The position numbers and the translations under genes were made by a program. Below are positions 5,701 through 61,447 of a DNA stretch of 64,000 bases, piece by piece. Position 1 is the first letter of the stretch. The number at the start of each line of letters is the position of its first letter. This DNA comes from Labia minor (taxonomy: Eukaryota; Arthropoda; Insecta; Dermaptera; Spongiphoridae), in assembly GCA_963082975.1 (NCBI GenBank), contig OY720348.1, positions 20,389,146 to 20,453,145 of the forward strand. Direction: 5' to 3'. The notes below the pieces were generated by a model. That model was given only the letters and a program-made list of their open reading frames with translations. It ran no database searches and was not told where the DNA came from.

Positions 5701-8437
5701 TTCATATTTCTTACTAAAAATTATTTTTTTATGCCGAAAACCTAGGGTCATCCTACGATGACTTTTCATAAATTTTACTGGAAAATTAAAAAATTAAATT
5801 TTTAAAAATAAATAATAAATTCGTTCATTTTACATCATAAAAATATTAAAAAAATATATTATTCATATTTCTTACTAAAAATTATTTTTTTATGCCGAAA
5901 ACCTAGGGTCATCCTACGATGACCTTTCATAAATTTTACGGGAAAATTAAAAAATGAAATTTTTAAAAATAAATAATAAATTCGTATTTTACATCATAAA
6001 AATATTAAAAAAATATATTATTCATATTTCTTACTAAAAATTATTTTTTTATGCCGAAAACCTAGGGTCATCCTACGATGACCTTTCATAAATTTTACGG
6101 GAAAATTAAAAAATTAAATTTTTAAAAATAAATAATAAATTCGTTCATTTTACATCATAAAAATATTAAAAAAATATATTATTCTTATTTCTTACTAAAA
6201 ATTATTTTTTTATGCCGAAAACCTAGGGTCATCCTACGATGACCTTTCATAAATTTTACGGGAAAATTAAAAAATGAAATTTTTAAAAATAAATAATAAA
6301 TTCGTATTTTACATCATAAAAATATTAAAAAAATATATTATTCATATTTCTTACTAAAAATTATTTTTTTATGCCGAAAACCTAGGGTCATCCTACGATG
6401 ACCTTTCATAAATTTTACGGGAAAATTAAAAAATGAAATTTTTAAAAATAAATAATAAATTCGTTCATTTTACATCATAAAAATATTAAAAAAATATATT
6501 ATTGATATTTCTGATGAATAATTATTTTTTTATGCCGAAAACCTAGGGTCATCCTTCGATGACCTTTCATAATTTTTACGGGAAAATTAAAAAATGAAAT
6601 TTTTAAAAATAAATAATAAATTCGTTCATTTTACATCATAAAAATATTAAAAAAATATATTATTCATATTTCTTACTAAAAATTATTTTTTTATGCCGAA
6701 AACCTAGGGTCATCCTACGATGACCTTTCATAAATTTTACGGGAAAATTAAAAAATGAAATTTTTAAAAATAAATAATAAATTCGTTCATTTTACATCAT
6801 AAAAATATTAAAAAAATATATTATTGATATTTCTGATGAATAATTATTTTTTTATGCCGAAAACCTAGGGTCATCCTACGATGACCTTTCATAATTTTTA
6901 CGGGAAAATTAAAAAATGAAATTTTTAAAAATAAATAATAAATTCGTTCATTTTACATCATAAAAATATTAAAAAAATATATTATTCATATTTCTTACTA
7001 AAAATTATTTTTTTATGCCGAAAACCTAGGGTCATCCTACGATGACCTTTCATAAATTTTACGGGAAAATTAAAAAATTAAATTTTTAAAAATAAATAAT
7101 AAATTCGTTCATTTTACATCATAAAAATATTAAAAAAATATATTATTCATATTTCTTACTAAAAATTATTTTTTTATGCCGAAAACCTAGGGTCATCCTA
7201 CGATGACCTTTCATAAATTTTACGGGAAAATTAAAAAATGAAATTTTTAAAAATAAATAATAAATTCGTATTTTACATCATAAAAATATTAAAAAAATAT
7301 ATTATTCATATTTCTTACTAAAAATTATTTTTTTATGCCGAAAACCTAGGGTCATCCTACGATGACCTTTCATAAATTTTACGGGAAAATTAAAAAATGA
7401 AATTTTTAAAAATAAATAATAAATTCGTTCATTTTACATCATAAAAATATTAAAAAAATATATTATTGATATTTCTGATGAATAATTATTTTTTTATGCC
7501 GAAAACCTAGGGTCATCCTACGATGACCTTTCATAATTTTTACGGGAAAATTAAAAAATGAAATTTTTAAAAATAAATAATAAATTCGTTCATTTTACAT
7601 CATAAAAATATTAAAAAAATATATTATTCATATTTCTTACTAAAAATTATTTTTTTATGCCGAAAACCTAGGGTCATCCTACGATGACCTTTCATAAATT
7701 TTACGGGAAAATTAAAAAATGAAATTTTTAAAAATAAATAATAAATTCGTTCATTTTACATCATAAAAATATTAAAAAAATATATTATTCATATTTCTTA
7801 CTAAAAATTATTTTTTTATGCCGAAAACCTAGGGTCATCCTACGATGACCTTTCATAATTTTTACGGGAAAATTAAAAAATGAAATTTTTAAAAATAAAT
7901 AATAAATTCGTTCATTTTACATCATAAAAATATTAAAAAAATATATTATTCATATTTCTTACTAAAAATTATTTTTTTATGCCGAAAACCTAGGGTCATC
8001 CTACGATGACCTTTCATAAATTTTACGGGAAAATTAAAAAATGAAATTTTTAAAAATAAATAATAAATTCGTTCATTTTACATCATAAAAATATTAAAAA
8101 AATATATTATTGATATTTCTGATGAATAATTATTTTTTTATGCCGAAAACCTAGGGTCATCCTACGATGACCTTTCATAATTTTTACGGGAAAATTAAAA
8201 AATTATAAATTTTTAAAAATAAATAATAAATTCGTTCGTTTTACATCATATAAATAATAAAAAAATATATTATTGATATTTCTGATGAATAATTATTTTT
8301 TTATGCCGAAAACCTAGGGTCATCCTACGATTACCTTTCATAATTTTTACGGGAAAATTAAAAAATGAAATTTTTAAAAATAAATAATAAATTCGTTCAT
8401 TTTACATCATAAAAATATTAAAAAAATATATTATTGA

Positions 8438-8442
8438 TATTT
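8438..8442 (+). repeat. Target-site duplication, left copy (TATTT)
   Basis: The five bases before the LTR are TATTT. The same five follow the right LTR at 13014-13018. Removing the element and one copy restores a normal monomer reading GATATTTCTTACTAAAA. Five bp is the usual size for Ty1/copia integrases. Confidence 0.95.
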
Positions 8443-8591
8443 TGTTAAAGTATATTAAAGTTGGTAACCCTGCACCTTCTTACCTGTATATATATTTATA
8501 GTATGACCTTAGAGTAAATGTTCACCTTGTATTAAAAACACATTCAAACTCGAACAGTGCATTTTCATTAAACACATTTAAAACTCCAACA
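8443..8591 (+). repeat. 5' LTR of Copia element 1
   Basis: 149 bp beginning TGTT and ending AACA, the standard TG...CA ends. It is identical to the copy at 12865-13013. A TATA-rich run lies at 8487-8500. ATTAAA, a weak polyadenylation signal, occurs at 8531 and 8567. The U3/R/U5 borders cannot be placed from sequence alone. At 149 bp it is short for copia. Confidence 0.97.
8487..8500 (+). promoter_or_regulatory. Probable TATA box of element 1 LTR promoter
   Basis: An uninterrupted alternating T/A run (TATATATATTTATA) lies in a less AT-rich part of the LTR, 44 bp from its start and about 186 bp before the gag-pol ATG. The position suits an RNA polymerase II promoter at the U3/R border, but low-complexity A/T sequence makes this tentative. 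Confidence 0.5.
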
Positions 8592-8606
8592 GGTTATGGG
8601 CCCAGG
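8592..8606 (+). other. Primer-binding site, internal initiator tRNA-Met type
   Basis: GGTTATGGGCCCAGG directly follows the LTR. It is complementary to the anticodon stem-loop region of animal initiator tRNA-Met (CTGGGCCCATAACC as DNA), not to the tRNA 3' end. Drosophila copia is known to be primed this way by a cleaved half tRNA. The untranslated leader runs on from here to 8672 and shows no other feature. Confidence 0.9.
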
Positions 8607-8672
8607 TAAACACTGCGGGTAATTGGGTGATAATTGGAAATATTTTTTAATCTTAAAAGGATTTTATAAAAA

Positions 8673-11600
8673 ATGGAATTTCTTAAAATTGAACCACTAC
8701 ACCGACACAACTATGATACCTGGAAGATTCAGATGGAAGCCATCCTAGTAAAAAATGGATATTGGAACATAGTCTCCGGAAACCAAAAAAGGTCAAATAT
8801 TGATGAAAAAGATACGAAAGGGATTGAAAAATGGGATCTCCTGGACCAAAAAGCTAAGTCTGATCTAATTTTATCAATAACACCTAGAGAATTAAGGATA
8901 GTTAAAAATTTAAATAGCTCAAGTGAAATATGGAATAAATTAAAGGAAACCTTTGAAAGTAAAGGTCCAGCCAAAAAGGCTTATTTGTTAAAGAAACTAA
9001 TTTTAAGTAAAATGAATATAAGTGATAATATGGATGACTATTTAAATACATTTTGTGAAATTATAGAAAAATTAAATGATATTGAATTTATAATAAATGA
9101 TGAACTATTATGTATAATATTATTATATAGTCTACCAGACGAATATGAAAATTTTAGATGTGCTATAGAAACAAGGGACACTTTGCCATCTTTAGATAAA
9201 TTAAAAATAAAATTATTGGAAGAGTTTGAATGTCGGGGAAGTCAAGGCGATTCCTCAAATCAAAGTAACTTTATTAAAAATAGAAATAAAAATAGACCTA
9301 TTAATAAAAATTATAATTTTAAAAATAATCCTTACAAAAATAATTCTTTAAATAAATATAATGAAAATAATAATAATAAATATAATACGAATAAAAAACA
9401 TAATTTTTTCAACAGGGATAAAAGGTCAACTGATTATAATAAATTTAGTATATCAAATAATGAAATTAAAAATAAAATTATATGTTTCCGTTGTAAGGGA
9501 GAAGGCCATAAAATTTCTCAATGTCCATCTAAGTCGACTCATATGTTAGCCCTAAAAGTCACTGATGATAAAAATGATTGGATTTTAGATTCTGGCTGTA
9601 CAAATCACATGATAAATAATAAAGAATTACTGGAAAATATAAGACATCCAAAACTAAATTGTTTAACACTAGCCGATAACAGTAAAATAAATATTGATTG
9701 TATTGGTGATATGATTATTAACATAAATAATAGACAAATTGAATTAACAGATGTACTATATGTTCCCAAATTAAAAACGAATTTATTATCTGTCGGGTCA
9801 TTTACTGATAAGAATTTTGAAGTTTTATTTAAAAATCATAATGCATTTATAACGAATAATGACGAACTAATGTTTACAGCTAAGAAAAAGGAGAACGGAT
9901 TATATTATTTAAATGAAAATATTAAAAATAAAGATAAAAATGATTTTTCATATTATTTAAATAAAAATAAATTATCAAAATTAGACATATGGCATAAAAG
10001 ATACGGACATTTAAATGAAAGAGATTTAAAACTAATAACCAAATCAGATCAGTTTTTCGGTTTAGACCAAAGTATATTAAATGAAAATTTAAATAATTGT
10101 GAAATATGCATTAAAGGAAAATTATCTCAAACACCTTTTAAAAATTCAAATTCACAGAAAAATTTAGAAATATTGGAAATAATCCATACAGATATTTGTG
10201 GACCATTTAGAACCACGTCTATCGGTGGAAATAAATATTTCATTACTTTTATAGACGAAGCAAGCAGATATTGCGAAGTTAAATTTCTAAAATACAAAAG
10301 TCAAGCTTTTGAAGCATTTATTGAATATAAAAATTATATTGAAAACATGACAGATAAAAGGATTAAATATTTGCAATCAGATAATGGAAAAGAATACATT
10401 AATAATAGATTTAATAATTTTTTAAAAAAATCAGGAATTAAGCGAAGATTAACAGTTCCTTATACGCCCCAACAAAATGGATTATCTGAACGTATGAACA
10501 AGACCCTATTGGAGATGACGAGATGTATGTTAATACAAGCAAATCTAGAACATTCCTTTTGGGCAGAAGCAGTAATAACTGCATGTTATTTGAGGAACAG
10601 AAGCCCAACATCATCTTTAAAAGGACAAATACCTTATAACATCCTTACAAACAAAAAATTTAATGTCTCACATTTAAGAACTTTTGGTATGAGAGTACAT
10701 TTTTTAAATAAAAATAATAAAAATAAATTAAATTCAAGAACAATTGAAGGAATTTTTATAGGTTATTGCGAGGAAAGCAAAGCTTATAGAGTATATGATC
10801 CCATGACCAGAAGGGTACATATTACTCGAGATATTAAATTTATAAACGAATTTCATAATAAAAATGGAGATAATTTAAAATATAATGATTTATTAGAAGA
10901 AAATTCAAAATACAACAGCTTGGACATAATGATTGATAAACATAATGATGATGCATCTTTAGAAAGTGATATAGACGAAAATAACATTGGCCAACAGAGA
11001 GGAAGAGGACGTCCTAAAATGATTAAAAGTGGAAATAGGGGAAGACCCAGAAAAGTCTATCAATACAAAAAATCCGAAAGTGAAAATGATGAAGAAACAA
11101 TTCCCAGCTCTAGAGACAGTGATGTCTTAAGTTCAGAAGATGAACTCTCGATAGAAACGACCGAAGGAGAGGTCCAAGGACTTAATGTAGAACTGAAAAT
11201 TAAAGATGCACTATTGCAAGAAGACTCGAACTTATGGAAAACAGCCATGAGGAAAGAAATGATTACATTAATTAAAAACGATACTTGGACAATGGTCAGG
11301 AAACACGAAAATCAAAATATAGTGGGTAGTCGTTTTGTCTTAACGACCAAAAATGATAATACTAAAAAGGCCAGGTTAGTCGCCAAGGGATATAGCCAAA
11401 CTTATTCTATAGATTATTTTGATACTTATTCACCTGTCGCCAGAATGAGCAGCGTGAGGACACTAATGGCTAAGTCTATAGAAGAAAAGTGGTACATTGA
11501 ACAAATGGACGTGGAGGCAGCGTATTTAAATGGTGAACTGGAAGAGAACATTTACATGGAATGTCCTGAAGGGTTTAACGACATATTGAAAGATTTAGTC

Positions 11601-12791
11601 GAAAATGAAAATGAAAATATAAAAAAGATTGCATTACAAATGATAAAAGACTTAAAAAAGGGGAAAAATATATTAAAATTAAAAAAGGCTATATACGGAT
11701 TGAAACAATCCGGACGCCAATGGTACAAAAAATTAGACATAAAATTAAAAAATTTAGGAATGTCTCCATTGGAGAGTGATCCATGCATATATATTAAAAA
11801 TAATAATAATAATAATAAAAACGTATTAATATTAATCATTTACGTGGATGATATAATCATAATAGGATCAAATAAAAAGGATATTAATGAATTTAAAAAG
11901 AATTTGTCTAATGTTTTTAACATGAAAGACATGGGAGAAATAAATCAATTTTTAGGCATAAAGTTTGAATACGATAGAGATAAAAACGTCTTAAGTATGA
12001 ATCAAACCAAATATATTGATGAATTGTTAAAAAGGTTTAACATGGAAGATTGCAAAACAATTTCAACTCCGATTGAGAAAAATTTGAAATTGCATAAATC
12101 CGAAAATAAAGAAAACTTAAATAAATATCCTTATCAATCATTAATAGGATCATTGAATTATATATCAATCAGCACAAGACCAGATATAACGTATGCGGTG
12201 AACTTTTTAAGTCAATTTAACAACTGTTACGATAAGGAACATTTCATAGCGGCAAAAAGAGTTTTAAGGTACTTAAAAGGATCCAAAAATATTGGTTTAA
12301 AATTTGACGGGTCGAGTACTCCATTATGTGGATATGTTGATTCTGATTGGGGGAACTCAATAATAGATCGAAAATCCATAACAGGTTACGCTTTTACGTT
12401 TAAAGGGGGTGTGATCCAATGGAACTCCAAAAAGCAGAACACAGTCGCACTCTCAAGCACGGAGGCAGAGTACATGGCTATGGGCGAAGCAGCCAAAGAA
12501 GCCATATATTTGCAAAATTTTCTAAAAGAAATAAATATCGAGAAAAATAATAAATGCACGACAATATATTGTGATAACCAAGGTGCTAAGTTCATTGCAG
12601 AAAACAATGCTTATAAAAATAGAACTAAACATATTGACATTAAACATCATTTTATAAAAAATCTAATAAAAGAAAATAGAATAAAATTAAAGTATTTAAG
12701 CACTGAAAATATGCCTGCTGATTTTCTCACGAAAACCGTCTCAAAGGTCAAGCAAGAAGATTGTATGAGAAGACTCAAGCAAATGAATTAA
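8673..12791 (+). CDS. Copia gag-pol polyprotein, intact (element 1)
   Basis: A single 1372-residue frame encoding all proteins for retrotransposition. Residues 1-195 are a copia-type Gag region starting MEFLKIEPL; 196-268 is an Asn/Lys-rich linker; a zinc knuckle is C271-C274-H279-C284. Aspartic protease has D306-S-G. The integrase N-terminal zinc site is H441, H446, C476, C479, and its catalytic triad is D507, D570, E606 (35 residues between the last two). Two AT-hook-like GRP motifs follow at 779-781 and 790-792. Reverse transcriptase starts near W855, with D946 and YVDD at 1057-1060. RNase H has D1223/D1225, E1264 and D1301, ending near the MPADFLTK motif. All catalytic residues are present. 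The ATG at 8673 is the first in frame after the leader and gives the usual Gag start. The length is close to Drosophila copia. Codon use is strongly A/T-biased. The single frame implies no gag-pol frameshift; known copia makes extra Gag by splicing, which I could not see here. Confidence 0.97.
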   Translation: MEFLKIEPLHRHNYDTWKIQMEAILVKNGYWNIVSGNQKRSNIDEKDTKGIEKWDLLDQKAKSDLILSITPRELRIVKNLNSSSEIWNKLKETFESKGPAKKAYLLKKLILSKMNISDNMDDYLNTFCEIIEKLNDIEFIINDELLCIILLYSLPDEYENFRCAIETRDTLPSLDKLKIKLLEEFECRGSQGDSSNQSNFIKNRNKNRPINKNYNFKNNPYKNNSLNKYNENNNNKYNTNKKHNFFNRDKRSTDYNKFSISNNEIKNKIICFRCKGEGHKISQCPSKSTHMLALKVTDDKNDWILDSGCTNHMINNKELLENIRHPKLNCLTLADNSKINIDCIGDMIININNRQIELTDVLYVPKLKTNLLSVGSFTDKNFEVLFKNHNAFITNNDELMFTAKKKENGLYYLNENIKNKDKNDFSYYLNKNKLSKLDIWHKRYGHLNERDLKLITKSDQFFGLDQSILNENLNNCEICIKGKLSQTPFKNSNSQKNLEILEIIHTDICGPFRTTSIGGNKYFITFIDEASRYCEVKFLKYKSQAFEAFIEYKNYIENMTDKRIKYLQSDNGKEYINNRFNNFLKKSGIKRRLTVPYTPQQNGLSERMNKTLLEMTRCMLIQANLEHSFWAEAVITACYLRNRSPTSSLKGQIPYNILTNKKFNVSHLRTFGMRVHFLNKNNKNKLNSRTIEGIFIGYCEESKAYRVYDPMTRRVHITRDIKFINEFHNKNGDNLKYNDLLEENSKYNSLDIMIDKHNDDASLESDIDENNIGQQRGRGRPKMIKSGNRGRPRKVYQYKKSESENDEETIPSSRDSDVLSSEDELSIETTEGEVQGLNVELKIKDALLQEDSNLWKTAMRKEMITLIKNDTWTMVRKHENQNIVGSRFVLTTKNDNTKKARLVAKGYSQTYSIDYFDTYSPVARMSSVRTLMAKSIEEKWYIEQMDVEAAYLNGELEENIYMECPEGFNDILKDLVENENENIKKIALQMIKDLKKGKNILKLKKAIYGLKQSGRQWYKKLDIKLKNLGMSPLESDPCIYIKNNNNNNKNVLILIIYVDDIIIIGSNKKDINEFKKNLSNVFNMKDMGEINQFLGIKFEYDRDKNVLSMNQTKYIDELLKRFNMEDCKTISTPIEKNLKLHKSENKENLNKYPYQSLIGSLNYISISTRPDITYAVNFLSQFNNCYDKEHFIAAKRVLRYLKGSKNIGLKFDGSSTPLCGYVDSDWGNSIIDRKSITGYAFTFKGGVIQWNSKKQNTVALSSTEAEYMAMGEAAKEAIYLQNFLKEINIEKNNKCTTIYCDNQGAKFIAENNAYKNRTKHIDIKHHFIKNLIKENRIKLKYLSTENMPADFLTKTVSKVKQEDCMRRLKQMN

Positions 12792-12850
12792 TTAAAAAAA
12801 AAAAAATGTTTATATTGTAAAATTGTATTTATTTATATTTTTAATTATTC

Positions 12851-12864
12851 ACTTGAAGGGGGTG
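12851..12864 (+). other. Polypurine tract region before the 3' LTR
   Basis: GAAGGGGG at 12855-12862 followed by TG abuts the 3' LTR. This is the expected plus-strand primer and resembles the G-rich tract of copia. The 3' untranslated stretch before it (12792-12850) is A/T-rich, with a run of A soon after the stop codon and nothing else recognisable. Confidence 0.85.
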
Positions 12865-13013
12865 TGTTAAAGTATATTAAAGTTGGTAACCCTGCACCTT
12901 CTTACCTGTATATATATTTATAGTATGACCTTAGAGTAAATGTTCACCTTGTATTAAAAACACATTCAAACTCGAACAGTGCATTTTCATTAAACACATT
13001 TAAAACTCCAACA
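12865..13013 (+). repeat. 3' LTR of Copia element 1
   Basis: 149 bp, TGTT...AACA, with no difference from the 5' LTR that I could find. It is followed at once by the second TATTT and normal satellite. Confidence 0.97.
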
Positions 13014-13018
13014 TATTT
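13014..13018 (+). repeat. Target-site duplication, right copy (TATTT)
   Basis: It matches 8438-8442. The satellite monomer resumes in register with CTTACTAAAAATT, as in an uninterrupted repeat. Confidence 0.95.
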
Positions 13019-16000
13019 CTTACTAAAAATTATTTTTTTATGCCGAAAACCTAGGGTCATCCTACGATGACCTTTCATAAATTTTACGGGAAAATTAAAA
13101 AATGAAATTTTTAAAAATAAATAATAAATTCGTTCATTTTACATCATAAAAATATTAAAAAAATATATTATTCATATTTCTTACTAAAAATTATTTTTTT
13201 ATGCCGAAAACCTAGGGTCATCCTACGATGACCTTTCATAAATTTTACGGGAAAATTAAAAAATGAAATTTTTAAAAATAAATAATAAATTCGTTCATTT
13301 TACATCATAAAAATATTAAAAAAATATATTATTGATATTTCTGATGAATAATTATTTTTTTATGCCGAAAACCTAGGGTCATCCTACGATTACCTTTCAT
13401 AATTTTTACGGGAAAATTAAAAAATGAAATTTTTAAAAATAAATAATAAATTCGTTCATTTTACATCATAAAAATATTAAAAAAATATATTATTCATATT
13501 TCTTACTAAAAATTATTTTTTTATGCCGAAAACCTAGGGTCATCCTACGATGACCTTTCATAAATTTTACGGGAAAATTAAAAAATTAAATTTTTAAAAA
13601 TAAATAATAAATTCGTTCATTTTACATCATAAAAATATTAAAAAAATATATTATTCATATTTCTTACTAAAAATTATTTTTTTATGCCGAAAACCTAGGG
13701 TCATCCTACGATGACCTTTCATAAATTTTACGGGAAAATTAAAAAATGAAATTTTTAAAAATAAATAATAAATTCGTATTTTACATCATAAAAATATTAA
13801 AAAAATATATTATTCATATTTCTTACTAAAAATTATTTTTTTATGCCGAAAACCTAGGGTCATCCTACGATGACCTTTCATAAATTTTACGGGAAAATTA
13901 AAAAATGAAATTTTTAAAAATAAATAATAAATTCGTTCATTTTACATCATAAAAATATTAAAAAAATATATTATTGATATTTCTGATGAATAATTATTTT
14001 TTTATGCCGAAAACCTAGGGTCATCCTACGATGACCTTTAATAATTTTTACGGGAAAATTAAAAAATGAAATTTTTAAAAATAAATAATAAATTCGTTCA
14101 TTTTACATCATAAAAATATTAAAAAAATATATTATTCATATTTCTTACTAAAAATTATTTTTTTATGCCGAAAACCTAGGGTCATCCTACGATGACCTTT
14201 CATAAATTTTACGGGAAAATTAAAAAATGAAATTTTTAAAAATAAATAATAAATTCGTTCATTTTACATCATAAAAATATTAAAAAAATATATTATTCAT
14301 ATTTCTTACTAAAAATTATTTTTTTATGCCGAATACCTAGGGTCATCCTACGATGACCTTTCATAAATTTTACGGGAAAATTAAAAAATTAAATTTTTAA
14401 AAATAAATAATAAATTCGTTCATTTTACATCATAAAAATATTAAAAAAATATATTATTCATATTTCTTACTAAAAATTATTTTTTTATGCCGAAAACCTA
14501 GGGTCATCCTACGATGACCTTTCATAAATTTTACGGGAAAATTAAAAAATGAAATTTTTAAAAATAAATAATAAATTCGTATTTTACATCATAAAAATAT
14601 TAAAAAAATATATTATTCATATTTCTTACTAAAAATTATTTTTTTATGCCGAAAACTTAGGGTCATCCTACGATGAGCTTTCATAATTTTTACGGGAAAA
14701 TTAAAAAATGAAATTTTTAAAAATAAATAATAAATTCGTTCGTTTTACATCATATAAATAATAAAAAAATATATTATTGATATTTCTTATGAATAATTAT
14801 TTTTTTATGCCGAAAACCTAGGGTCATCCTACGATTACCTTTCATAATTTTTACGGGAAAATTAAAAAATGAAATTTTTAAAAATAAATAATAAATTCGT
14901 TCATTTTACATCATAAAAATATTAAAAAAATATATTATTGATATTTCTTACTAAAAATTATTTTTTTATGCCGAAAACCTAGGGTCATCCTACGATGACC
15001 TTTCATAAATTTTACGGGAAAATTAAAAAATGAAATTTTTAAAAATAAATAATAAATTCGTTCATTTTACATCATAAAAATATTAAAAAAATATATTATT
15101 CATATTTCTTACTAAAAATTATTTTTTTATGCCGAAAACCTAGGGTCATCCTACGATGACCTTTCATAAATTTTACGGGAAAATTAAAAAATTAAATTTT
15201 TAAAAATAAATAATAAATTCGTTCATTTTACATCATAAAAATATTAAAAAAATATATTATTCATATTTCTTACTAAAAATTATTTTTTTATGCCGAAAAC
15301 CTAGGGTCATCCTACGATGACCTTTCATAAATTTTACGGGAAAATTAAAAAATGAAATTTTTAAAAATAAATAATAAATTCGTATTTTACATCATAAAAA
15401 TATTAAAAAAATATATTATTCATATTTCTTACTAAAAATTATTTTTTTATGCCGAAAACCTAGGGTCATCCTACGATGACCTTTCATAAATTTTACGGGA
15501 AAATTAAAAAATGAAATTTTTAAAAATAAATAATAAATTCGTTCATTTTACATCATAAAAATATTAAAAAAATATATTATTCATATTTCTTACTAAAAAT
15601 TATTTTTTTATGCCGAAAACCTAGGGTCATCCTACGATGACCTTTCATAAATTTTACGGGAAAATTAAAAAATGAAATTTTTAAAAATAAATAATGAATT
15701 CGTATTTTACATCATAAAAATATTAAAAAAATATATTATTCATATTTCTTACTAAAAATTATTTTTTTATGCCGAAAACCTAGGGTCATCCTACGATGAC
15801 CTTTCATAAATTTTACGGGAAAATTAAAAAATGAAATTTTTAAAAATAAATAATAAATTCGTTCATTTTACATCATAAAAATATTAAAAAAATATATTAT
15901 TGATATTTCTGATGAATAATTATTTTTTTATGCCGAAAACCTAGGGTCATCCTACGATGACCTTTCATAATTTTTACGGGAAAATTAAAAAATGAAATTT

Positions 16001-19000
16001 TTAAAAATAAATAATAAATTCGTTCATTTTACATCATAAAAATATTAAAAAAATATATTATTCATATTTCTTACTAAAAATTATTTTTTTATGCCGAAAA
16101 CCTAGGGTCATCCTACGATGACCTTTCATAAATTTTACGGGAAAATTAAAAAATGAAATTTTTAAAAATAAATAATAAATTCGTTCATTTTACATCATAA
16201 AAATATTAAAAAAATATATTATTCATATTTCTTACTAAAAATTATTTTTTTATGCCGAAAACCTAGGGTCATCCTACGATGACCTTTCATAAATTTTACG
16301 GGAAAATTAAAAAATGAAATTTTTAAAAATAAATAATAAATTCGTTCATTTTACATCATAAAAATTTTAAAAAAATATATTATTGATATTTCTTACTAAA
16401 AATTATTTTTTTATGCCGAAAACCTAGGGTCATCCTACGATGACCTTTCATAATTTTTACGGTAAAATTAAAAAATGAAATTTTTAAAAATAAATAATAA
16501 ATTCGTTCATTTTACATCATAAAAATATTAAAAAAATATATTATTGATATTTCTGATGAATAATTATTTTTTTATGCCGAAAACCTAGGGTCATCCTACG
16601 ATGACCTTTCATAATTTTTACGGGAAAATTAAAAAATGAAATTTTTAAAAATAAATAATAAATTCGTTCGTTTTACATCATATAAATAATAAAAAAATAT
16701 ATTATTGATATTTCTGATGAATAATTATTTTTTTATGCCGAAAACCTAGGGTCATCCTACGATTACCTTTCATAATTTTTACGGGAAAATTAAAAAATTA
16801 AATTTTTAAAAATAAATAATAAATTCGTTCGTTTTACATCATATAAATAATAAAAAAATATATTATTGATATTTCTGATGAATAATTATTTTTTTATGCC
16901 GAAAACCTAGGGTCATCCTACGATGACCTTTCATAAATTTTACGGGAAAATTAAAAAATGAAATTTTTAAAAATAAATAATAAATTCGTTCATTTTACAT
17001 CATAAAAATATTAAAAAAATATATTATTCATATTTCTTACTAAAAATTATTTTTTTATGCCGAAAACCTAGGGTCATCCTACGATGACCTTTCATAAATT
17101 TTACGGGAAAATTAAAAAATGAAATTTTTAAAAATAAATAATAAATTCGTTCATTTTACATCATAAAAATGTTAAAAAAATATATTATTCATATTTCTTA
17201 CTAAAAATTATTTTTTTATGCCGAAAACCTAGGGTCATCCTACGATGACCTTTCATAAATTTTACGGGAAAATTAAAAAATTAAATTTTTAAAAATAAAT
17301 AATAAATTCGTTCATTTTACATCATAAAAATATTAAAAAAATATATTATTCATATTTCTTACTAAAAATTATTTTTTTATGCCGAAAACCTAGGGTCATC
17401 CTACGATGACCTTTCATAAATTTTACGGGAAAATTAAAAAATGAAATTTTTAAAAATAAATAATAAATTCGTTCATTTTACATCATAAAAATATTAAAAA
17501 AATATATTATTGATATTTCTTACTAAAAATTATTTTTTTATGCCGAAAACCTAGGGTCATCCTACGATGACCTTTCATAAATTTTACGGGAAAATTAAAA
17601 AATTAAATTTTTAAAAATAAATAATAAATTCGTTCATTTTACATCATAAAAATATTAAAAAAATATATTATTGATATTTCTTACTAAAAATTATTTTTTT
17701 ATGCCGAAAACCTAGGGTCATCCTACGATGACCTTTCATAAATTTTACGGGAAAATTAAAAAATGAAATTTTTAAAAATAAATAATAAATTCGTTCATTT
17801 TACATCATAAAAATATTAAAAAAATATATTATTCATATTTCTTACTAAAAATTATTTTTTTATGCCGAAAACCTAGGGTCATCCTACGATGACCTTTCAT
17901 AAATTTTACGGGAAAATTAAAAAATGAAATTTTTAAAAATAAATAATAAATTCGTATTTTACATCATAAAAATATTAAAAAAATATATTATTCATATTTC
18001 TTACTAAAAATTATTTTTTTATGCCGAAAACCTAGGGTCATCCTACGATGACCTTTCATAAATTTTACGGGAAAATTAAAAAATGAAATTTTTAAAAATA
18101 AATAATAAATTCGTATTTTACATCATAAAAATATTAAAAAAATATATTATTCATATTTCTTACTAAAAATTATTTTTTTATGCCGAAAACCTAGGGTCAT
18201 CCTACGATGACCTTTCATAAATTTTACGGGAAAATTAAAAAATGAAATTTTTAAAAATAAATAATAAATTCGTTCATTTTACATCATAAAAATATTAAAA
18301 AAATATATTATTGATATTTCTGATGAATAATTATTTTTTTATGCCGAAAACCTAGGGTCATCCTACGATGACCTTTCATAATTTTTACGGGAAAATTAAA
18401 AAATGAAATTTTTAAAAATAAATATTAAATTCGTTCATTTTACATCATAAAATTATTAAAAAAATATATTATTCATATTTCTTACTAAAAATTATTTTTT
18501 TATGCCGAAAACCTAGGGTCATCCTACGATGACCTTTCATAATTTTTACGCGAAAATTAAAAAATGAAATTTTTAAAAATAAATAATAAATTCGTTCGTT
18601 TTACATCATATAAATAATAAAAAAATATATTATTGATATTTCTGATGAATAATTATTTTTTTATGCCGAAAACCTAGGGTCATCCTACGATGACCTTTCA
18701 TAAATTTTACGGGAAAATTAAAAAATGAAATTTTTAAAAATAAATAATAAATTCGTTCATTTTACATCATAAAAATATTAAAAAAATATATTATTCATAT
18801 TTCTTACTAAAAATTATTTTTTTATGCCGAAAACCTAGGGTCATCCTACGATGACCTTTCATAAATTTTACGGGAAAATTAAAAAATGAAATTTTTAAAA
18901 ATAAATAATAAATTCGTTCATTTTACATCATAAAAATGTTAAAAAAATATATTATTCATATTTCTTACTAAAAATTATTTTTTTATGCCGAAAACCTAGG

Positions 19001-45785: not shown

Positions 45786-46369
45786 AAAATATTAAAAATT
45801 ATATTATTGATATTTCTGATGAATAATTATTTTTTTATGCCGAAAACCTAGGGTCATCCTACGATGACCTTTCATAATTTTTACGGTACAATTAAAAAAT
45901 GAAATTTTTAAAAATAAATAATAAATTCGTTCATTTTACATCATAAAAATATTAAAAAAATATATTATTCATATTTCTTACTAATAATTATTTTTTTATG
46001 CCGAAAACCTAGGGTCATCCTACGATGACCTTTCATAATTTTTACGGTACAATTAAAAAATGAAATTTTTAAAAATAAATAATAAATTCGTTCATTTTAC
46101 ATCATAAAAATATTAAAAAAATATATTATTCATATTTCTTACTAATAATTATTTTTTTATGCCGAAAACCTAGGGTCATCCTACGATGACCTTTCATAAT
46201 TTTTACGGGAAAATTAAAAAATGAAATTTTTAAAAATAAATAATAAATTCGTTCATTTTACATCATAAAAATATTAAAAAAATATATTATTCATATTTCT
46301 TACTAAAAATTATTTTTTTATGCCGAAAACCTAGGGTCATCCTACGATGACCTTTGATAAATTTTACGG

Positions 46370-49300: not shown

Positions 49301-49740
49301 AATTCGTTCATTTTACATCATAAAAATATTAAAAAAATATATTATTGATATTTCTTACTAAAAAGTATTTTTTTATGCCGAAAACCTAGGGTCATCCTAC
49401 GATGACCTTTCATAATTTTTACGGTACAATTAAAAAATGAAATTTTTAAAAATAAATAATAAATTCGTTCATTTTACATCATAAAAATATTAAAAAAATA
49501 TATTATTCATATTTCTTACTAAAAATTATTTTTTTATGCCGAAAACCTAGGGTCATCCTACGATGACCTTTCATAAATTTTACGGGAAAATTAAAAAATG
49601 AAATTTTTAAAAATAAATAATAAATTCGTTCATTTTACATCATAAAAATATTAAAAATTATATTATTGATATTTCTGATGAATAATTATTTTTTTATGCC
49701 GAAAACCTATGGTCATCCTACGATGACCTTTCATAATTTT
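46370..49740 (+). repeat. 1608-bp (10-monomer) tandem duplication
   Basis: The private variant CGAACACCTAGGG occurs at 47288 and 48896, and GGTACAATT at 46529 and 48137, both 1608 bp apart (ten monomers less two bases). Copy 1 is about 46370-47977 and copy 2 about 47978-49740. Outside these limits the flanking variants differ (GATAAA against CATAAA upstream; GGTACA against GGTAAA downstream). Confidence 0.87.
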
Positions 49741-52374
49741 TACGGTAAAATTAAAAAATGAAATTTTTAAAAATAAATAATAAATTCGTTCATTTTACAT
49801 CATAAAAATATTAAAAAATTATATTATTCATATTTCTTACTAAAAATTATTTTTTTATGCCGAAAACCTAGGGTCATCCTACGATGACCTTTGATAAATT
49901 TTACGGGAAAATTAAAAAATGAAATTTTTAAATATAAATAATAAATTCGTTCATTTTACATCATAAAAATATTAAAAAAATATATTATTGATATTCCTGA
50001 TGAATAATTATTTTTTTATGCCGAAAACCTAGGGTCATCCTACGATGACCTTTCATAATTTTTACGGGAAAATTAAAAAATGAAATTTTTAAAAATAAAT
50101 AATAAATTCGTTCATTTTACATCATAAAAATATTAAAAAAATATATTATTCATATTTCTTACTAAAAATTATTTTTTTATGCCGAAAACCTAGGGTCATC
50201 CTACGATGACCTTTCATAAATTTTACGGGAAAATTAAAAAATGAAATTTTTAAAAATAAATAATAAATTCGTTCATTTTACATCATAAAAATATTAAAAA
50301 AATATATTATTGATATTTCTTACTAAAAATTATTTTTTTATGCCGAAAACCTAGGGTCATCCTACGATGAACTTTCATAATTTTTACGGGAAAATTAAAA
50401 AATTAAATTTTTAAAAATAAATAATAAATTCGTTCATTTTACATCATAAAAATATTAAAAAAATATATTATTCATATTTCTTACTAAAAATTATTTTTTT
50501 ATGCCGAAAACCTAGGGTCATCCTACGATGACCTTTGATAAATTTTACGGGAAAATTAAAAAATGAAATTTTTAAAAATAAATAATAAATTCGTTCATTT
50601 TACATCATAAAAATATTAAAAAAATATATTATTCATATTTCTTACTAAAAATTATTTTTTTATGCCGAAAACCTAGGGTCATCCTACGATGACCTTTCAT
50701 AATTTTTACGGGAAAATTAAAAAATGAAATTTTTAAAAATAAATAATAAATTCGTTCATTTTACATCATAAAAATATTAAAAATTATATTATTGATATTT
50801 CTGATGAATAATTATTTTTTTATGCCGAAAACCTAGGGTCATCCTACGATGACCTTTCATAATTTTTACGGTAAAATTAAAAAATGAAATTTTTAAAAAT
50901 AAATAATAAATTCGTTCATTTTACATCATAAAAATATTAAAAAAATATATTATTCATATTTCTTACTAAAAATTATTTTTTTATGCCGAAAACCTAGGGT
51001 CATCCTACGATGACCTTTGATAAATTTTACGGGAAAATTAAAAAATGAAATTTTTAAAAATAAATAATAAATTCGTTCATTTTACATCATAAAAATATTA
51101 AAAAAATATATTATTCATATTTCTTACTAAAAATTATTTTTTTATGCCGAAAACCTAGGGTCATCCTACGATGACCTTTCATAATTTTTACGGGAAAATT
51201 AAAAAATGAAATTTTTAAAAATAAATAATAAATTCGTTCATTTTACATCATAAAAATATTAAAAAAATATATTATTCATATTTCTTACTAAAAATTATTT
51301 TTTTATGCCGAAAACCTAGGGTCATCCTACGATGACCTTTCATAAATTTTACGGGAAAATTAAAAAATGAAATTTTTAAAAATAAATAATAAATTCGTTC
51401 ATTTTACATCATAAAAATATTAAAAAAATATATTATTGATATTTCTTACTAAAAATTATTTTTTTATGCCGAAAACCTAGGGTCATCCTACGATGACCTT
51501 TCATAATTTTTACGGGAAAATTAAAAAATTAAATTTTTAAAAATAAATAATAAATTCGTTCATTTTACATCATAAAAATATTAAAAAAATATATTATTCA
51601 TATTTCTTACTAAAAATTATTTTTTTATGCCGAAAACCTAGGGTCATCCTACGATGACCTTTGATAAATTTTACGGAAAAATTAAAAAATGAAATTTTTA
51701 AAAATAAATAATAAATTCGTTCATTTTACATCATAAAAATATTAAAAATTATATTATTGATATTTCTGATGAATAATTATTTTTTTATGCCGAAAACCTA
51801 GGGTCATCCTACGATGACCTTTCATAATTTTTACGGTAAAATTAAAAAATGAAATTTTTAAAAATAAATAATAAATTCGTTCATTTTACATCATAAAAAT
51901 ATTAAAAAAATATATTATTGATATTCCTGATGAATAATTATTTTTTTATGCCGAAAACCTAGGGTCATCCTACGATTACCTTTCATAATTTTTACGGGAA
52001 AATTAAAAAATGAAATTTTTAAAAATAAATAATAATTCGTTCATTTTACATCATAAAAATATTAAAAAAATATATTATTCATATTTCTTACTAAAAATTA
52101 TTTTTTTATGCCGAAAACCTAGGGTCATCCTACGATGACCATTCATAAATTTTACGGGAAAATTAAAAAATGAAATTTTTAAAAATAAATAATAAATTCG
52201 TTCATTTTACATCATAAAAATATTAAAAAAATATATTATTGATATTTCTGATGAATAATTATTTTTTTATGCCGAAAACCTAGGGTCATCCTACGATGAC
52301 CTTTCATAAATTTTACGGGAAAATTAAAAAATGAAATTTTTAAAAATAAATAATAAATTCGTTCATTTACAATC

Positions 52375-55300
52375 ATAAAAATATTAAAAAAATATATTAT
52401 TCATATTTCTTACTAAAAATTATTTTTTTATGCCGAAAACCTAGGGTCATCCTACGATGACCTTTCATAAATTTTACGGGAAAATTAAAAAATTAAATTT
52501 TTAAAAATAAATAATAAATTCGTTCATTTTACATCATAAAAATATTAAAAAAATATATTATTGATATTTCTTACTAAAAAGTATTTTTTTATGCCGAAAA
52601 CCTAGGGTCATCCTACGATGACCTTTCATAAATTTTACTGGAAAATTAAAAAATTAAATTTTTAAAAATAAATAATAAATTCGTTCATTTTACATCATAA
52701 AAATATTAAAAATTATATTATTGATATTTCTGATGAATAATTATTTTTTTATGCCGAAAACCTAGGGTCATCCTACGATGACCTTTCATAATTTTTACGG
52801 TAAAATTAAAAAATGAAATTTTTAAAAATAAATAATAAATTCGTTCATTTTACATCATAAAAATATTAAAAAAATATATTATTCATATTTCTTACTAAAA
52901 ATTATTTTTTTATGCCGAAAACCTAGGGTCATCCTACGATGACCTTTGATAAATTTTACGGGAAAATTAAAAAATGAAATTTTTAAAAATAAATAATAAA
53001 TTCGTTCATTTTACATCATAAAAATATTAAAAAAATATATTATTGATATTCCTGATGAATAATTATTTTTTTATGCCGAAAACCTAGGGTCATCCTACGA
53101 TGACCTTTCATAATTTTTACGGGAAAATTAAAAAATGAAATTTTTAAAAATATATAATAAATTCGTTCATTTTACATCATAAAATTATTAAAAAAATATA
53201 TTATTCATATTTCTTACTAAAAATTATTTTTTTATGCCGAAAACTTAGGGTCATCCTACGATGACCTTTCATAATTTTTACGGGAAAATTAAAAAATGAA
53301 ATTTTTAAAAATAAATAATAAATTCGTTCATTTTACATCATATAAATATTAAAATATTATTCATATTTCTTACTAAAAATTATTTTTTTATGCCGAAAAC
53401 CTAGGGTCATCCTACGATGACCTTTCATAAATTTTACGGGAAAATTAAAAAATGAAATTTTTAAAAATAAATAATAAATTTGTTCATTTTACATCATAAA
53501 AATATTAAAAAAATATATTATTCATATTTCTTACTAAAAATTATTTTTTTATGCCGAAAACCTAGTGTCATCCTACGATGACCTTTCATAAATTTTACGG
53601 GAAAATTAAAAAATTAAATTTTTAAAAATAAATAATAAATTCGTTCATTTTACATCATAAAAATATTAAAAAAATATATTATTGATATTTCTTACTAAAA
53701 AGTATTTTTTTATGCCGAAAACCTAGGGTCATCCTACGATGACCTTTCATAATTTTTACGGTACAATTAAAAAATGAAATTTTTAAAAATAAATAATAAA
53801 TTCGTTCATTTTACATCATAAAAATATTAAAAAAATATATTATTCATATTTCTTACTAAAAATTATTTTTTTATGCCGAAAACCTAGGGTCATCCTACGA
53901 TGACCTTTCATAAATTTTACGGGAAAATTAAAAAATGAAATTTTTAAAAATAAATAATAAATTCGTTCATTTTACATCATAAAAATATTAAAAAAATATA
54001 TTATTCATATTTCTTACTAAAAAGTATTTTTTTATGCCGAAAACCTAGGGTCATCCTACGATGACCTTTCATAATTTTTACGGTACAATTAAAAAATGAA
54101 ATTTTTAAAAATAAATAATAAATTCGTTCATTTTACATCATAAAAATATTAAAAAAATATATTATTCATATTTCTTACTAAAAATTATTTTTTTATGCCG
54201 AAAACCTAGGGTCATCCTACGATGACCTTTCATAAATTTTACGGGAAAATTAAAAAATGAAATTTTTTAAAATAAATAATAAATTCGTTCATTTTACATC
54301 ATAAAAATATTAAAAATTATATTATTGATATTTCTGATGAATAATTATTTTTTTATGCCGAAAACCTAGGGTCATCCTACGATGACCTTTCATAATTTTT
54401 ACGGTAAAATTAAAAAATGAAATTTTTAAAAATAAATAATAAATTCGTTCATTTTACATCATAAAAATATTAAAAAAATATATTATTCATATTTCTTACT
54501 AAAAATTATTTTTTTATGCCGAAAACCTAGGGTCATCCTACGATGACCTTTCATAAATTTTACGGGAAAATTAAAAAATTAAATTTTTAAAAATAAATAA
54601 TAAATTCGTTCATTTTACATCATAAAAATATTAAAAAAATATATTATTGATATTTCTTACTAAAAAGTATTTTTTTATGCCGAAAACCTAGGGTCATCCT
54701 ACGATGACCTTTCATAAATTTTACTGGAAAATTAAAAAATTAAATTTTTAAAAATAAATAATAAATTCGTTCATTTTACATCATAAAAATATTAAAAATT
54801 ATATTATTGATATTTCTGATGAATAATTATTTTTTTATGCCGAAAACCTAGGGTCATCCTACGATGACCTTTCATAATTTTTACGGTAAAATTAAAAAAT
54901 GAAATTTTTAAAAATAAATAATAAATTCGTTCATTTTACATCATAAAAATATTAAAAAAATATATTATTCATATTTCTTACTAAAAATTATTTTTTTATG
55001 CCGAAAACCTAGGGTCATCCTACGATGACCTTTGATAAATTTTACGGGAAAATTAAAAAATGAAATTTTTAAAAATAAATAATAAATTCGTTCATTTTAC
55101 ATCATAAAAATATTAAAAAAATATATTATTGATATTCCTGATGAATAATTATTTTTTTATGCCGAAAACCTAGGGTCATCCTACGATGACCTTTCATAAT
55201 TTTTACGGGAAAATTAAAAAATGAAATTTTTAAAAATATATAATAAATTCGTTCATTTTACATCATAAAATTATTAAAAAAATATATTATTCATATTTCT

Positions 55301-56655
55301 TACTAAAAATTATTTTTTTATGCCGAAAACTTAGGGTCATCCTACGATGACCTTTCATAATTTTTACGGGAAAATTAAAAAATGAAATTTTTAAAAATAA
55401 ATAATAAATTCGTTCATTTTACATCATATAAATATTAAAATATTATTCATATTTCTTACTAAAAATTATTTTTTTATGCCGAAAACCTAGGGTCATCCTA
55501 CGATGACCTTTCATAAATTTTACGGGAAAATTAAAAAATGAAATTTTTAAAAATAAATAATAAATTTGTTCATTTTACATCATAAAAATATTAAAAAAAT
55601 ATATTATTCATATTTCTTACTAAAAATTATTTTTTTATGCCGAAAACCTAGGGTCATCCTACGATGACCTTTCATAAATTTTACGGGAAAATTAAAAAAT
55701 TAAATTTTTAAAAATAAATAATAAATTCGTTCATTTTACATCATAAAAATATTAAAAAAATATATTATTGATATTTCTTACTAAAAAGTATTTTTTTATG
55801 CCGAAAACCTAGGGTCATCCTACGATGACCTTTCATAATTTTTACGGTACAATTAAAAAATGAAATTTTTAAAAATAAATAATAAATTCGTTCATTTTAC
55901 ATCATAAAAATATTAAAAAAATATATTATTCATATTTCTTACTAAAAATTATTTTTTTATGCCGAAAACCTAGGGTCATCCTACGATGACCTTTCATAAA
56001 TTTTACGGGAAAATTAAAAAATGAAATTTTTAAAAATAAATAATAAATTCGTTCATTTTACATCATAAAAATATTAAAAAAATATATTATTCATATTTCT
56101 TACTAAAAAGTATTTTTTTATGCCGAAAACCTAGGGTCATCCTACGATGACCTTTCATAATTTTTACGGTACAATTAAAAAATGAAATTTTTAAAAATAA
56201 ATAATAAATTCGTTCATTTTACATCATAAAAATATTAAAAAAATATATTATTCATATTTCTTACTAAAAATTATTTTTTTATGCCGAAAACCTAGGGTCA
56301 TCCTACGATGACCTTTCATAAATTTTACGGGAAAATTAAAAAATGAAATTTTTTAAAATAAATAATAAATTCGTTCATTTTACATCATAAAAATATTAAA
56401 AATTATATTATTGATATTTCTGATGAATAATTATTTTTTTATGCCGAAAACCTAGGGTCATCCTACGATGACCTTTCATAATTTTTACGGTAAAATTAAA
56501 AAATGAAATTTTTAAAAATAAATAATAAATTCGTTCATTTTACATCATAAAAATATTAAAAAAATATATTATTCATATTTCTTACTAAAAATTATTTTTT
56601 TATGCCGAAAACCTAGGGTCATCCTACGATGACCTTTCATAAATTTTACGGGAAA
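52375..56655 (+). repeat. 2086-bp (13-monomer) tandem duplication
   Basis: TTACTGGAAAATT (52635 and 54721) and a monomer with a 5-bp deletion, CATCATATAAATATTAAAATATT (CATATAAAT at 53338 and 55424), recur 2086 bp apart. Copy 1 is about 52375-54460 and copy 2 about 54461-56655. A point change, CCTAGTGTC near 53565, is private to copy 1. A related deleted monomer occurs again near 57836. Confidence 0.87.
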
Positions 56656-59600
56656 ATTAAAAAATGAAATTTTTAAAAATAAATAATAAATTCGTTCATT
56701 TTACATCATAAAAATATTAAAAAAATATATTATTGATATTCCTGATGAATAATTATTTTTTTATGCCGAAAACCTAGGGTCATCCTACGATGACCTTTCA
56801 TAATTTTTACGGGAAAATTAAAAAATGAAATTTTTAAAAATATATAATAAATTCGTTGATTTTACATCATAAAATTATTAAAAAAATATATTATTCATAT
56901 TTCTTACTAAAAATTATTTTTTTATGCCGAAAACCTAGGGTCATCCTACGATGACCTTTCATAAATTTTACGGGAAAATTAAAAAATGAAATTTTTAAAA
57001 ATTAATAATAAATTCGTTCATTTTACATCATAAAAATATTAAAAAAATATATTATTGATATTTCTTAATAAAAAGTATTTTTTTATGCCGAAAACCTAGG
57101 GTCATCCTACGATGACCTTTCATAATTTTTACGGTAAAATTAAAAAATGAAATTTTTAAAAATAAATAATAAATTCGTTCATTTTACATCATAAAAATAT
57201 TAAAAAAATATATTATTCATATTTCTTACTAAAAATTATTTTTTTATGCCGAAAACCTAGGGTCATCCTACGATGACCTTTCATAAATTTTACGGGAAAA
57301 TTAAAAAATGAAATTTTTAAAAATAAATAATAAATTCGTTCATTTTACATCATAAAAATATTAAAAAAATATTATATTGATATTCCTGATGAATAATTAT
57401 TTTTTTATGCCGAAAACCTAGGGTCATCCTACGATGACCTTTCATAATTTTTACGGGAAAATTAAAAAATGAAATTTTTAAAAATATATAATAAATTCGT
57501 TCATTTTACATCATAAAATTATTAAAAAAATATATTATTCATATTTCTTACTAAAAATTATTTTTTTATGCCGAAAACTTAGGGTCATCCTACGATGACC
57601 TTTCATAATTTTTACAGGAAAATTAAAAAATTTAATTTTTAAAAATAAATAATAAATTCGTTCGTTTTACATCATATAAATAATAAAAAAATATATTATT
57701 GATATTTCTGATGAATAATTATTTTTTTATGCCGAAAACCTAGGGTCATCCTACGATTACCTTTCATAATTTTTACGGGAAAATTAAAAAATGAAATTTT
57801 TAAAAATAAATAATAAATTCGTTCATTTTACATCATATAAATATTAAAATATTATTCATATTTCTTACTAAAAATTATTTTTTTATGCCGAAAACCTAGG
57901 GTCATCCTACGATGACCTTTCATAAATTTTACGGGAAAATTAAAAAATGAAATTTTTAAAAATAAATAATAAATTTGTTCATTTTACATCATAAAAATAT
58001 TAAAAAAATATATTATTCATATTTCTTACTAAAAATTATTTTTTTATGCCGAAAACCTAGGGTCATCCTACGATGACCTTTCATAAATTTTACGGGAAAA
58101 TTAAAAAATGAAATTTTTTAAAATAAATAATAAATTCGTTCATTTTACATCATAAAAATATTAAAAATTATATTATTGATATTTCTGATGAATAATTATT
58201 TTTTTATGCCGAAAACCTAGGGTCATCCTACGATGACCTTTCATAATTTTTACGGTAAAATTAAAAAATGAAATTTTTAAAAATAAATAATAAATTCGTT
58301 CATTTTACATCATAAAAATATTAAAAAAATATATTATTCATATTTCTTACTAAAAATTATTTTTTTATGCCGAAAACCTAGGGTCATCCTACGATGACCT
58401 TTCATAATTTTTACGGGAAAATTAAAAAATGAAATTTTTAAAAATAAATAATAAATTCGTTCATTTTACATCATAAAAATATTAAAAAAATATATTATTC
58501 ATATTTCTTACTAAAAATTATTTTTTTATGCCGAAAACCTAGGGTCATCCTACGATGACCTTTGATAAATTTTACGGGAAAATTAAAAAATGAAATTTTT
58601 AAAAATATATAATAAATTCGTTGATTTTACATCATAAAATTATTAAAAAAATATATTATTCATATTTCTTACTAAAAATTATTTTTTTATGCCGAAAACC
58701 TAGGGTCATCCTACGATGACCTTTCATAAATTTTACGGGAAAATTAAAAAATGAAATTTTTAAAAATTAATAATAAATTCGTTCATTTTACATCATAAAA
58801 ATATTAAAAAAATATATTATTCATATTTCTTACTAAAAATTATTTTTTTATGCCGAAAACCTAGGGTCATCCTACGATGACCTTTCATAAATTTTACGGG
58901 AAAATTAAAAAATGAAATTTTTTAAAATAAATAATAAATTCGTTCATTTTACATCATAAAAATATTAAAAAAATATATTATTGATATTTCTGATGAATAA
59001 TTATTTTTTTATGCCGAAAACCTAGGGTCATCCTACGATGACCTTTCATAATTTTTACGGGAAAATTAAAAAATGAAATTTTTAAAAATATATAATAAAT
59101 TCGTTCATTTTACATCATAAAATTATTAAAAAAATATATTATTCATATTTCTTACTAAAAATTATTTTTTTATGCCGAAAACCTAGGGTCATCCTACGAT
59201 GACCTTTCATAAATTTTACGGGAAAATTAAAAAATTAAATTTTTAAAAATAAATAATAAATTCGTTCATTTTACATCATAAAAATATTAAAAAAATATAT
59301 TATTGATATTTCTTAATAAAAAGTATTTTTTTATGCCGAAAACCTAGGGTCATCCTACGATGACCTTTCATAATTTTTACGGTAAAATTAAAAAATGAAA
59401 TTTTTAAAAATAAATAATAAATTCGTTCATTTTACATCATAAAAATATTAAAAAAATATATTATTCATATTTCTTACTAAAAATTATTTTTTTATGCCGA
59501 AAACCTAGGGTCATCCTACGATGACCTTTCATAAATTTTACGGGAAAATTAAAAAATGAAATTTTTAAAAATAAATAATAAATTCGTTCATTTTACATCA

Positions 59601-61299
59601 TAAAAATATTAAAAAAATATATTATTCATATTTCTTACTAAAAATTATTTTTTTATGCCGAAAACCTAGGGTCATCCTACGGTGACCTTTCATAAATTTT
59701 ACGGGAAAATTAAAAAATGAAATTTTTAAAAATAAATAATAAATTCGTATTTTACATCATAAAAATATTAAAAAAATATATTATTCATATTTCTTACTAA
59801 AAATTATTTTTTTATGCCGAAAACCTAGGGTCATCCTACGATTTCCTTTCATAAATTTTACGGGAAAATTAAAAAATGAAATTTTTAAAAATAAATAATA
59901 AATTCGTTCATTTTACATCATAAAAATATTAAAAAAATATATTATTGATATTTCTGATGAATAATTATTTTTTTATGCCGAAAACCTAGGGTCATCCTAC
60001 GATGACCTTTCATAAATTTTACGGGAAAATTAAAAAATGAAATTTTTAAAAATAAATAATAAATTCGTTCATTTTACATCATAAAAATATTAAAAAAATA
60101 TATTATTCATATTTCTTACTAAAAATTATTTTTTTATGCCGAAAACCTAGGGTCATCCTACGATGACCTTTCATAAATTTTACGGGAAAATTAAAAAATT
60201 AAATTTTTAAAAATAAATAATAAATTCGTTCATTTTACATCATAAAAATATTAAAAAAATATATTATTGATATTTCTTACTAAAAAGTATTTTTTATGCC
60301 GAAAACCTAGGGTCATCCTACGATGACCTTTCATAATTTTTACGGTAAAATTAAAAAATGAAATTTTTAAAAATAAATAATAAATTCGTTCATTTTACAT
60401 CATAAAAATATTAAAAAAATATATTATTCATATTTCTTACTAAAAATTATTTTTTTATGCCGAAAACCTAGGGTCATCCTACGATGACCTTTCATAAATT
60501 TTACGGGAAAATTAAAAAATGAAATTTTTAAAAATAAATAATAAATTCGTTCATTTTACATCATAAAAATATTAAAAAAATATATTATTGATATTCCTGA
60601 TGAATAATTATTTTTTTATGCCGAAAACCTAGGGTCATCCTACGATGACCTTTCATAAATTTTACGGGAAAATTAAAAAATGAAATTTTTTAAAATAAAT
60701 AATAAATTCGTTCATTTTACATCATAAAAATATTAAAAAAATATATTATTGATATTTCTGATGAATAATTATTTTTTTATGCCGAAAACCTAGGGTCATC
60801 CTACGATGACCTTTCATAATTTTTACGGGAAAATTAAAAAATGAAATTTTTAAAAATATATGATAAATTCGTTCATTTTACATCATAAAATTATTAAAAA
60901 AATATATTATTCATATTTCTTACTAAAAATTATTTTTTTATGCCGAAAACCTAGGGTCATCCTACGATGACCTTTCATAAATTTTACGGGAAAATTAAAA
61001 AATTAAATTTTTAAAAATAAATAATAAATTCGTTCATTTTACATCATAAAAATATTAAAAAAATATATTATTGATATTTCTGATGAATAATTATTTTTTT
61101 ATGCCGAAAACCTAGGGTCATCCTACGATGACCTTTCATAATTTTTACGGTAAAATTAAAAAATGAAATTTTTAAAAATAAATAATAAATTCGTTCATTT
61201 TACATCATAAAAATATTAAAAAAATATATTATTCATATTTTGTTAGAAATACATTTCGTATATTTCCGCCACCCATAAGACGCCATCTATCGCTCAAGC

Positions 61300-61305
61300 T
61301 ATAAA
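61300..61305 (+). promoter_or_regulatory. Probable TATA box of element 2 LTR
   Basis: TATAAA in the context CTATAAAGC, 59 bp into the LTR and upstream of the AATAAA sites, the order expected for U3 then R. The assignment is by position and sequence only. Confidence 0.55.
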
Positions 61306-61441
61306 GCATATATTCATATAGTTTGACAGCCATTACATGTGTTCGATTTATATTATACATTTTGTTTCTTTGTTCTATAAATTTTAACTAATTAATAATT
61401 GTAATCTATTAATAATAATAAATAATCTTGTTTTTTGATTG

Positions 61442-61447
61442 AATAAA
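61442..61447 (+). promoter_or_regulatory. Candidate polyadenylation signal in element 2 LTR
   Basis: AATAAA lies about 70 bp before the LTR end; another copy lies at 61417-61422. Either could end LTR-driven transcripts. The A/T-rich setting makes chance matches likely. Confidence 0.4.

Follow-up and report, generated by a model that had tools for sequence, protein, structure and literature searches.

Targeting rules have been established for only a small number of LTR retrotransposons, and their preference for satellites has mostly been described by region. Tal1 is a centromere-seeking plant Copia family, and to our knowledge a single monomer base is not a hallmark of the centromere-seeking plant elements. 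Insertion at a fixed base and in a fixed orientation within a tandem repeat is typical of the R1 and R2 non-LTR elements in rDNA, which are target-primed by an endonuclease with near-absolute specificity. In yeast, a 16-residue segment in the C-terminus of the Ty1 integrase contacts Pol III, as described in PMC10050235, and the swapping of targeting domains in Ty1 and Ty5 redirects insertion, as outlined in part of PMC11054761. Passages of PMC3185499 further describe that LEDGF ties the lentiviral integrase to chromatin via an AT-hook pair (residues 178 to 197), among other parts. Here, we describe two Copia elements that begin at the same base and on the same strand of a satellite monomer in a stretch of 64,000 nucleotides from Labia minor (the window), and that both carry AT-hook-like motifs in the integrase tail.

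Structure of the Satellite Array and the Two Elements

The satellite was reported by TRF as a single row with a period of 161, spanning positions 1 to 61240 of the window, and 352 monomer anchors were located on the forward strand (≤5 mismatches), with none on the opposite strand in the window (≤4 mismatches). The anchor spacings are 161, 160, 159, 156 or 163 bp, except for one gap that contains element 1, and because all the other spacings lie between 156 and 163 bp, there is no solo LTR between the anchors of the 352-anchor array. The array is 81% AT when element 1 is excluded, versus 72% AT for element 1, and the mean monomer identity is 96 to 97% at lags 1 to 20. A search of the viral contig collection with the satellite core 25-mer gave no matches. 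Numbering the monomer from CCTAGGG (0-based), five of the eight positions whose major base falls below 90% in the 161-bp monomers lie at 123 to 138, around the insertion point, and form two partly linked variants, C..TTACT..A and G..GATG..T. The most GC-rich stretch of the consensus carries a dyad at monomer positions 5 to 22 (0-based), GGTCATC-CTAC-GATGACC, which lies some 47 bp away from the insertion point and is a possible candidate for protein binding. The coordinates of all the features are shown in Table 1.

Table 1. Features of the satellite array and the two Copia elements, in window coordinates.
Feature	Position	Strand	Details
Satellite array left of element 1	1..8442	+	161-bp monomer; TRF period 161, monomer anchors
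Satellite array between the elements	13019..61240	+	161-bp monomer; TRF period 161, monomer anchors
Element 1	8443..13013	+	Ty1/Copia LTR retrotransposon with both LTRs, 4571 bp
Element 1, left TSD copy	8438..8442	+	TATTT
Element 1, 5' LTR	8443..8591	+	149 bp, TGTTA...CAACA
Element 1, primer-binding site	8592..8605	+	GGTTATGGGCCCAG
Element 1, gag-pol ORF	8673..12791	+	Single open frame, 1372 aa
Element 1, AT-hook-like pair	10998..11054	+	RGRGRPK ... NRGRPRK, residues 776-794
Element 1, 3' LTR	12865..13013	+	149 bp
Element 1, right TSD copy	13014..13018	+	TATTT
Element 2	61241..64000	+	Ty1/Copia, cut by the window end
Element 2, left flank	61236..61240	+	TATTT, presumed TSD
Element 2, 5' LTR	61241..61516	+	276 bp; TG...CA ends and primer site
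Element 2, gag-pol ORF	61650..63998	+	First 783 aa, open at the window end
Element 2, AT-hook-like pair	63927..63983	+	RRRGRPR ... PGRPKK, residues 760-778

Element 1 has direct LTRs of the Copia type with TG...CA ends and a short TSD, which is a perfect 5 bp repeat with TATTT on either side, the right flank continuing as CTTACTAAAA. Its primer-binding site, GGTTATGGGCCCAG, is presumably of the initiator Met tRNA anticodon-region type. The Pfam domains detected were Retrotran_gag_2 (21-188), rve (502-599), SH3_retrovirus (659-726) and RVT_2 (869-1136), plus a zinc knuckle, while the protease is represented by a DSG motif found by eye only, so that the Ty1/Copia order of gag, (protease), integrase and RT is present. 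Residues 441 to 768 match the structure chain 7z0h_W, named Integrase (E 2.5e-22), which, in view of PMC10050235, we take to be the Ty1 integrase chain. The two LTRs are 100% identical and the frame is open, suggesting that the insertion of element 1 is recent.

Element 2 is visible in part, with a 5' LTR that reads TGTTAG...CTCTAACA, followed by GGTTATGAGCCCAG, and with a domain order that can be followed through SH3 (637-704, Pfam), its RT lying beyond the window. No direct repeat of at least 30 bp was found in positions 61200 to 64000, and since the 3' LTR and the right flank are outside the window, the TSD of element 2 is presumed from the left flank alone.

Insertion Position in the Satellite Monomer

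The first-pass annotation placed the start of element 1 at 8443, after ...GATATTT, and that of element 2 at 61241, after ...CATATTT, at the same base of the monomer and in the same orientation, and the sequence bears this out. Both elements start on the same strand, 130 bases into the monomer when it is numbered from CCTAGGG, immediately behind a TATTT at consensus positions 125 to 129 (0-based). Thus, both of the two insertions of these elements in the window are at one monomer base, though the window is nearly all satellite, so insertions elsewhere would hardly be visible in it. ATATTT is preceded by a G at element 1 and by a C at element 2, both of which are common in the array.

The two elements had also been described as carrying distinct LTRs of 149 and 276 bp and diverged proteins, neither being a duplicate of the other, which agrees with our comparison. 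Aligned by BLASTP, the proteins share 312 of 758 columns (41% identity), and blastn between the LTRs gave short matches only, the best by E-value being 13 bp on opposite strands, so the LTRs have no real similarity. Elements 1 and 2 are therefore confirmed as two separate insertions that share a monomer position and an orientation, and they probably belong to related but long-separated Copia families. In addition, neither 1-kb left flank is among the eight matches listed for the other. A single insertion that was copied by array expansion or conversion and later diverged would also give the same position and strand, but this is almost certainly wrong, considering that the proteins share 41% identity and the LTRs no homology while the monomers are still 96 to 97% identical (lags 1 to 20), and that the LTRs of element 1 are identical to each other. 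A recombinant origin of the element 1 flanks was considered and rejected, as the hybrid monomer is common: the hybrid empty site (GATATTT + CTTACTAAAA) occurs elsewhere in the array, with 20 further copies as a 40-mer and 13 as a 90-mer, and recombination is therefore unneeded.

How surprising the match is depends on the sites that are taken to be available. The chance of about 1 in 320 given by the first-pass annotation stands for uniform insertion, for which arithmetic gives 1/322, but not if certain 5-mers are favored, as the consensus holds 78 all-AT 5-mers, over which the chance becomes 1/156, and six TATTT/AAATA sites, over which it becomes 1/12 in two orientations; the TATTT/AAATA counts in the real array give 0.080. 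Overall, the positional coincidence of the two elements is suggestive, not strong, and two insertions cannot decide the matter.

These numbers bear on the reading in which the match is a coincidence helped by an ordinary preference for AT-rich 5-mers such as TATTT, with the integrase tail serving as a nuclear localisation signal or in another role. We regard this as a serious contender, albeit one about which we are rather doubtful. A favored TATTT/AAATA would bring the match to about 1 in 12 (0.080 from the array counts), while an all-AT preference alone leaves it at 1 in 156. Passages of PMC3276498 describe the target motifs of Drosophila LTR elements as AT-rich and palindromic, with Copia seemingly outside the analyzed set, and against this palindromic rule the insertion site has little palindromic character at close range, ranking 144 of 161 at a half-width of 5 and 126 of 161 at a half-width of 10. 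This counts only weakly against the 5-mer reading, since plant LTR elements show only a slight palindrome preference according to part of PMC6911290.

The close-range palindrome was likewise rejected as an insertion cue by the same two ranks, and because the site is no close-range palindrome, the exact base is not readily accounted for by the palindromic motifs reported for many LTR elements. Over a wider range, the dyad symmetry of the site ranks 9 of 161 (half-width 20) and 6 of 161 (half-width 25), and the TSD center (127) is near the midpoint (128.5) of an A7 tract (107-113) and a T7 tract (144-150). Such a setting is consistent with phased chromatin or DNA shape, by which the 161-bp monomer would hold a nucleosome or satellite-binding protein in register and expose the same point to any integrase, and passages of PMC6911290 report that plant LTR insertions track the predicted nucleosome occupancy. 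However, the symmetry was picked out in hindsight from ten half-widths, the remaining eight of which rank from 17 to 144 of 161, and we consider this explanation on its own unlikely.

AT-Hook-like Motifs in the Integrase Tail

Both proteins carry a tail with RGRP[KR] followed 11 residues on by a second GRP with basic residues, located after the integrase SH3-like domain and before the RT. The GRP cores are at residues 779 and 790 in element 1 and at residues 763 and 774 in element 2, which gives a spacing of 11 in both, and the second motif of element 2 has no arginine before its GRP. Between the two proteins, the main BLASTP alignment ends at residues 727 and 705, respectively, and the remaining tail aligns poorly. 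When the tails were shuffled, two GRP-plus-basic motifs appeared in 0 of 200,000 cases for element 1 and in 2 of 200,000 for element 2. Pfam AT_hook (PF02178) was the top match of each tail scanned alone, with 14.7 and 13.8 bits (E 0.028 and 0.055), both below the Pfam cut-off of 17.4 bits, and it was absent from the whole-protein Pfam scan of both elements (E up to 1); we therefore call the tails AT-hook-like only. An AT-hook in a Copia integrase was not found among the open-access matches listed in a literature search of titles and abstract openings.

AT-hooks bind short AT runs, and basic tails of such a kind can be nuclear localisation signals. The motif pair may be an inherited sublineage feature that selection has preserved, a tether of the AT-hook type, a nuclear localisation signal, or several of these. 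Judged by its motifs, the tail lends some support to a regional targeting to AT-rich DNA, independently of the position match. However, AT-hooks alone cannot pick one base, since the monomer contains 78 all-AT 5-mers.

To see the motif against other Copia-like loci, a degenerate integrase pattern was searched for, which gave 66 stretches in the genome contig collection and 0 in the viral contig collection, while none of the results of protein-based searches of these two collections was confirmed by tblastn. With element 2 as the tblastn query, there was no match in the phage collection, and eight records were obtained from the plasmid collection, three of them Copia-like. Together, the 66 contig stretches and the three plasmid loci made 69; 24 of them matched one or the other element by tblastn (E up to 1e-6), and 18 spanned the tail. 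The control scan read the tail region in three frames and asked for one GRP-plus-basic motif, the pair not being required, and this loose pattern occurred in only one of the 18 distant loci (L004), in a string with stops, whilst L024, L049 and L062 have a GRP without the basic residue. These controls are distant, with best-scoring element 1 pieces that are 23 to 38% identical, and none is known to be an insect sequence. One bin contributes seven of them (two on a single contig), L001 and L002 are nearly identical, and another bin supplies both L024 and L063, which leaves far fewer than 18 independent controls. Being distant and non-independent, they show only that the GRP motif is not general in Copia.

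Locus L003 (NC_015657.1, Frankia plasmid record pFSYMDG02) is an unannotated 5.4-kb record that is largely a Copia element, presumably Ty-like, with frames at 187 and 3891, and it is likely a eukaryotic contamination of a bacterial record. L001 (NZ_CP115302.1) and L002 (NZ_CP115454.1), small linear 'plasmids' of Streptomyces and Kitasatospora, respectively, encode nearly identical Copia polyproteins of what we take to be a plant-like kind and are likely contamination as well. Loci L004, L014, L019, L036, L047, L057 and L062 belong to one uncultured Trichormus bin, whose contigs encode several Copia relatives, suggesting that this bin carries eukaryotic contamination.

Discussion

The first-pass annotation took the shared position as a sign of site-specific targeting of the satellite or of a strong local preference. 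Two independent insertions at the same site speak for this, and the AT-hook-like tail, which that annotation did not bring up, gives some support for targeting by region, but a site-specific targeting goes beyond two insertions, one of which has its presumed TSD partly outside the window, with a chance of about 1 in 12 under a TATTT preference. The explanation that we tentatively put first, while granting it somewhat less than an even chance, combines a tether with a local preference. Two related, long-separated Copia families would have inserted independently at one satellite base, with the tandem AT-hook-like integrase tail tethering the integration complex to the very AT-rich satellite DNA. 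Such a tail would raise integration into the satellite without choosing the base. As a tether of this kind cannot select a base, the choice would need a further local structural preference, e.g., for DNA shape, which would then set the same base for both elements. Three things are inferred here: an affinity of the tail for AT-rich DNA, a role of the tail in directing integration, and a true preference for the exact position in place of chance. If true, a base-level rule in a satellite together with a candidate DNA-binding integrase tail would bear on satellites as safe harbors of transposons, and base-level targeting would also bear on how arrays get interrupted and evolve.

LTR elements in or near satellite arrays are also described in plants, including CRM, Athila and Copia families such as Ale, in passages of PMC12477314. 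The motif pair resembles that of LEDGF/p75, in which two AT-hooks within about 20 residues serve chromatin tethering, as described in part of PMC3185499. LEDGF/p75 differs in being a host cofactor with a PWWP domain, its AT-hooks lying outside the integrase. The fixed base and orientation in a tandem repeat recall R1 and R2, which use another enzyme, are target-primed and have near-absolute specificity. That a Copia lineage encodes its own AT-hook targeting module in the integrase tail and colonizes an AT-rich satellite with it, always at the same base and in the same orientation, as an LTR counterpart of R1/R2 in rDNA, would be the most far-reaching reading, and we think it improbable. The yeast elements Ty1 and Ty5 are of the Copia superfamily and have a short motif in the tail after the integrase core, where their targeting segments lie and where both elements here have theirs, with the difference that the Ty1 tail binds Pol III whereas the motif of elements 1 and 2 resembles a DNA-binding AT-hook.
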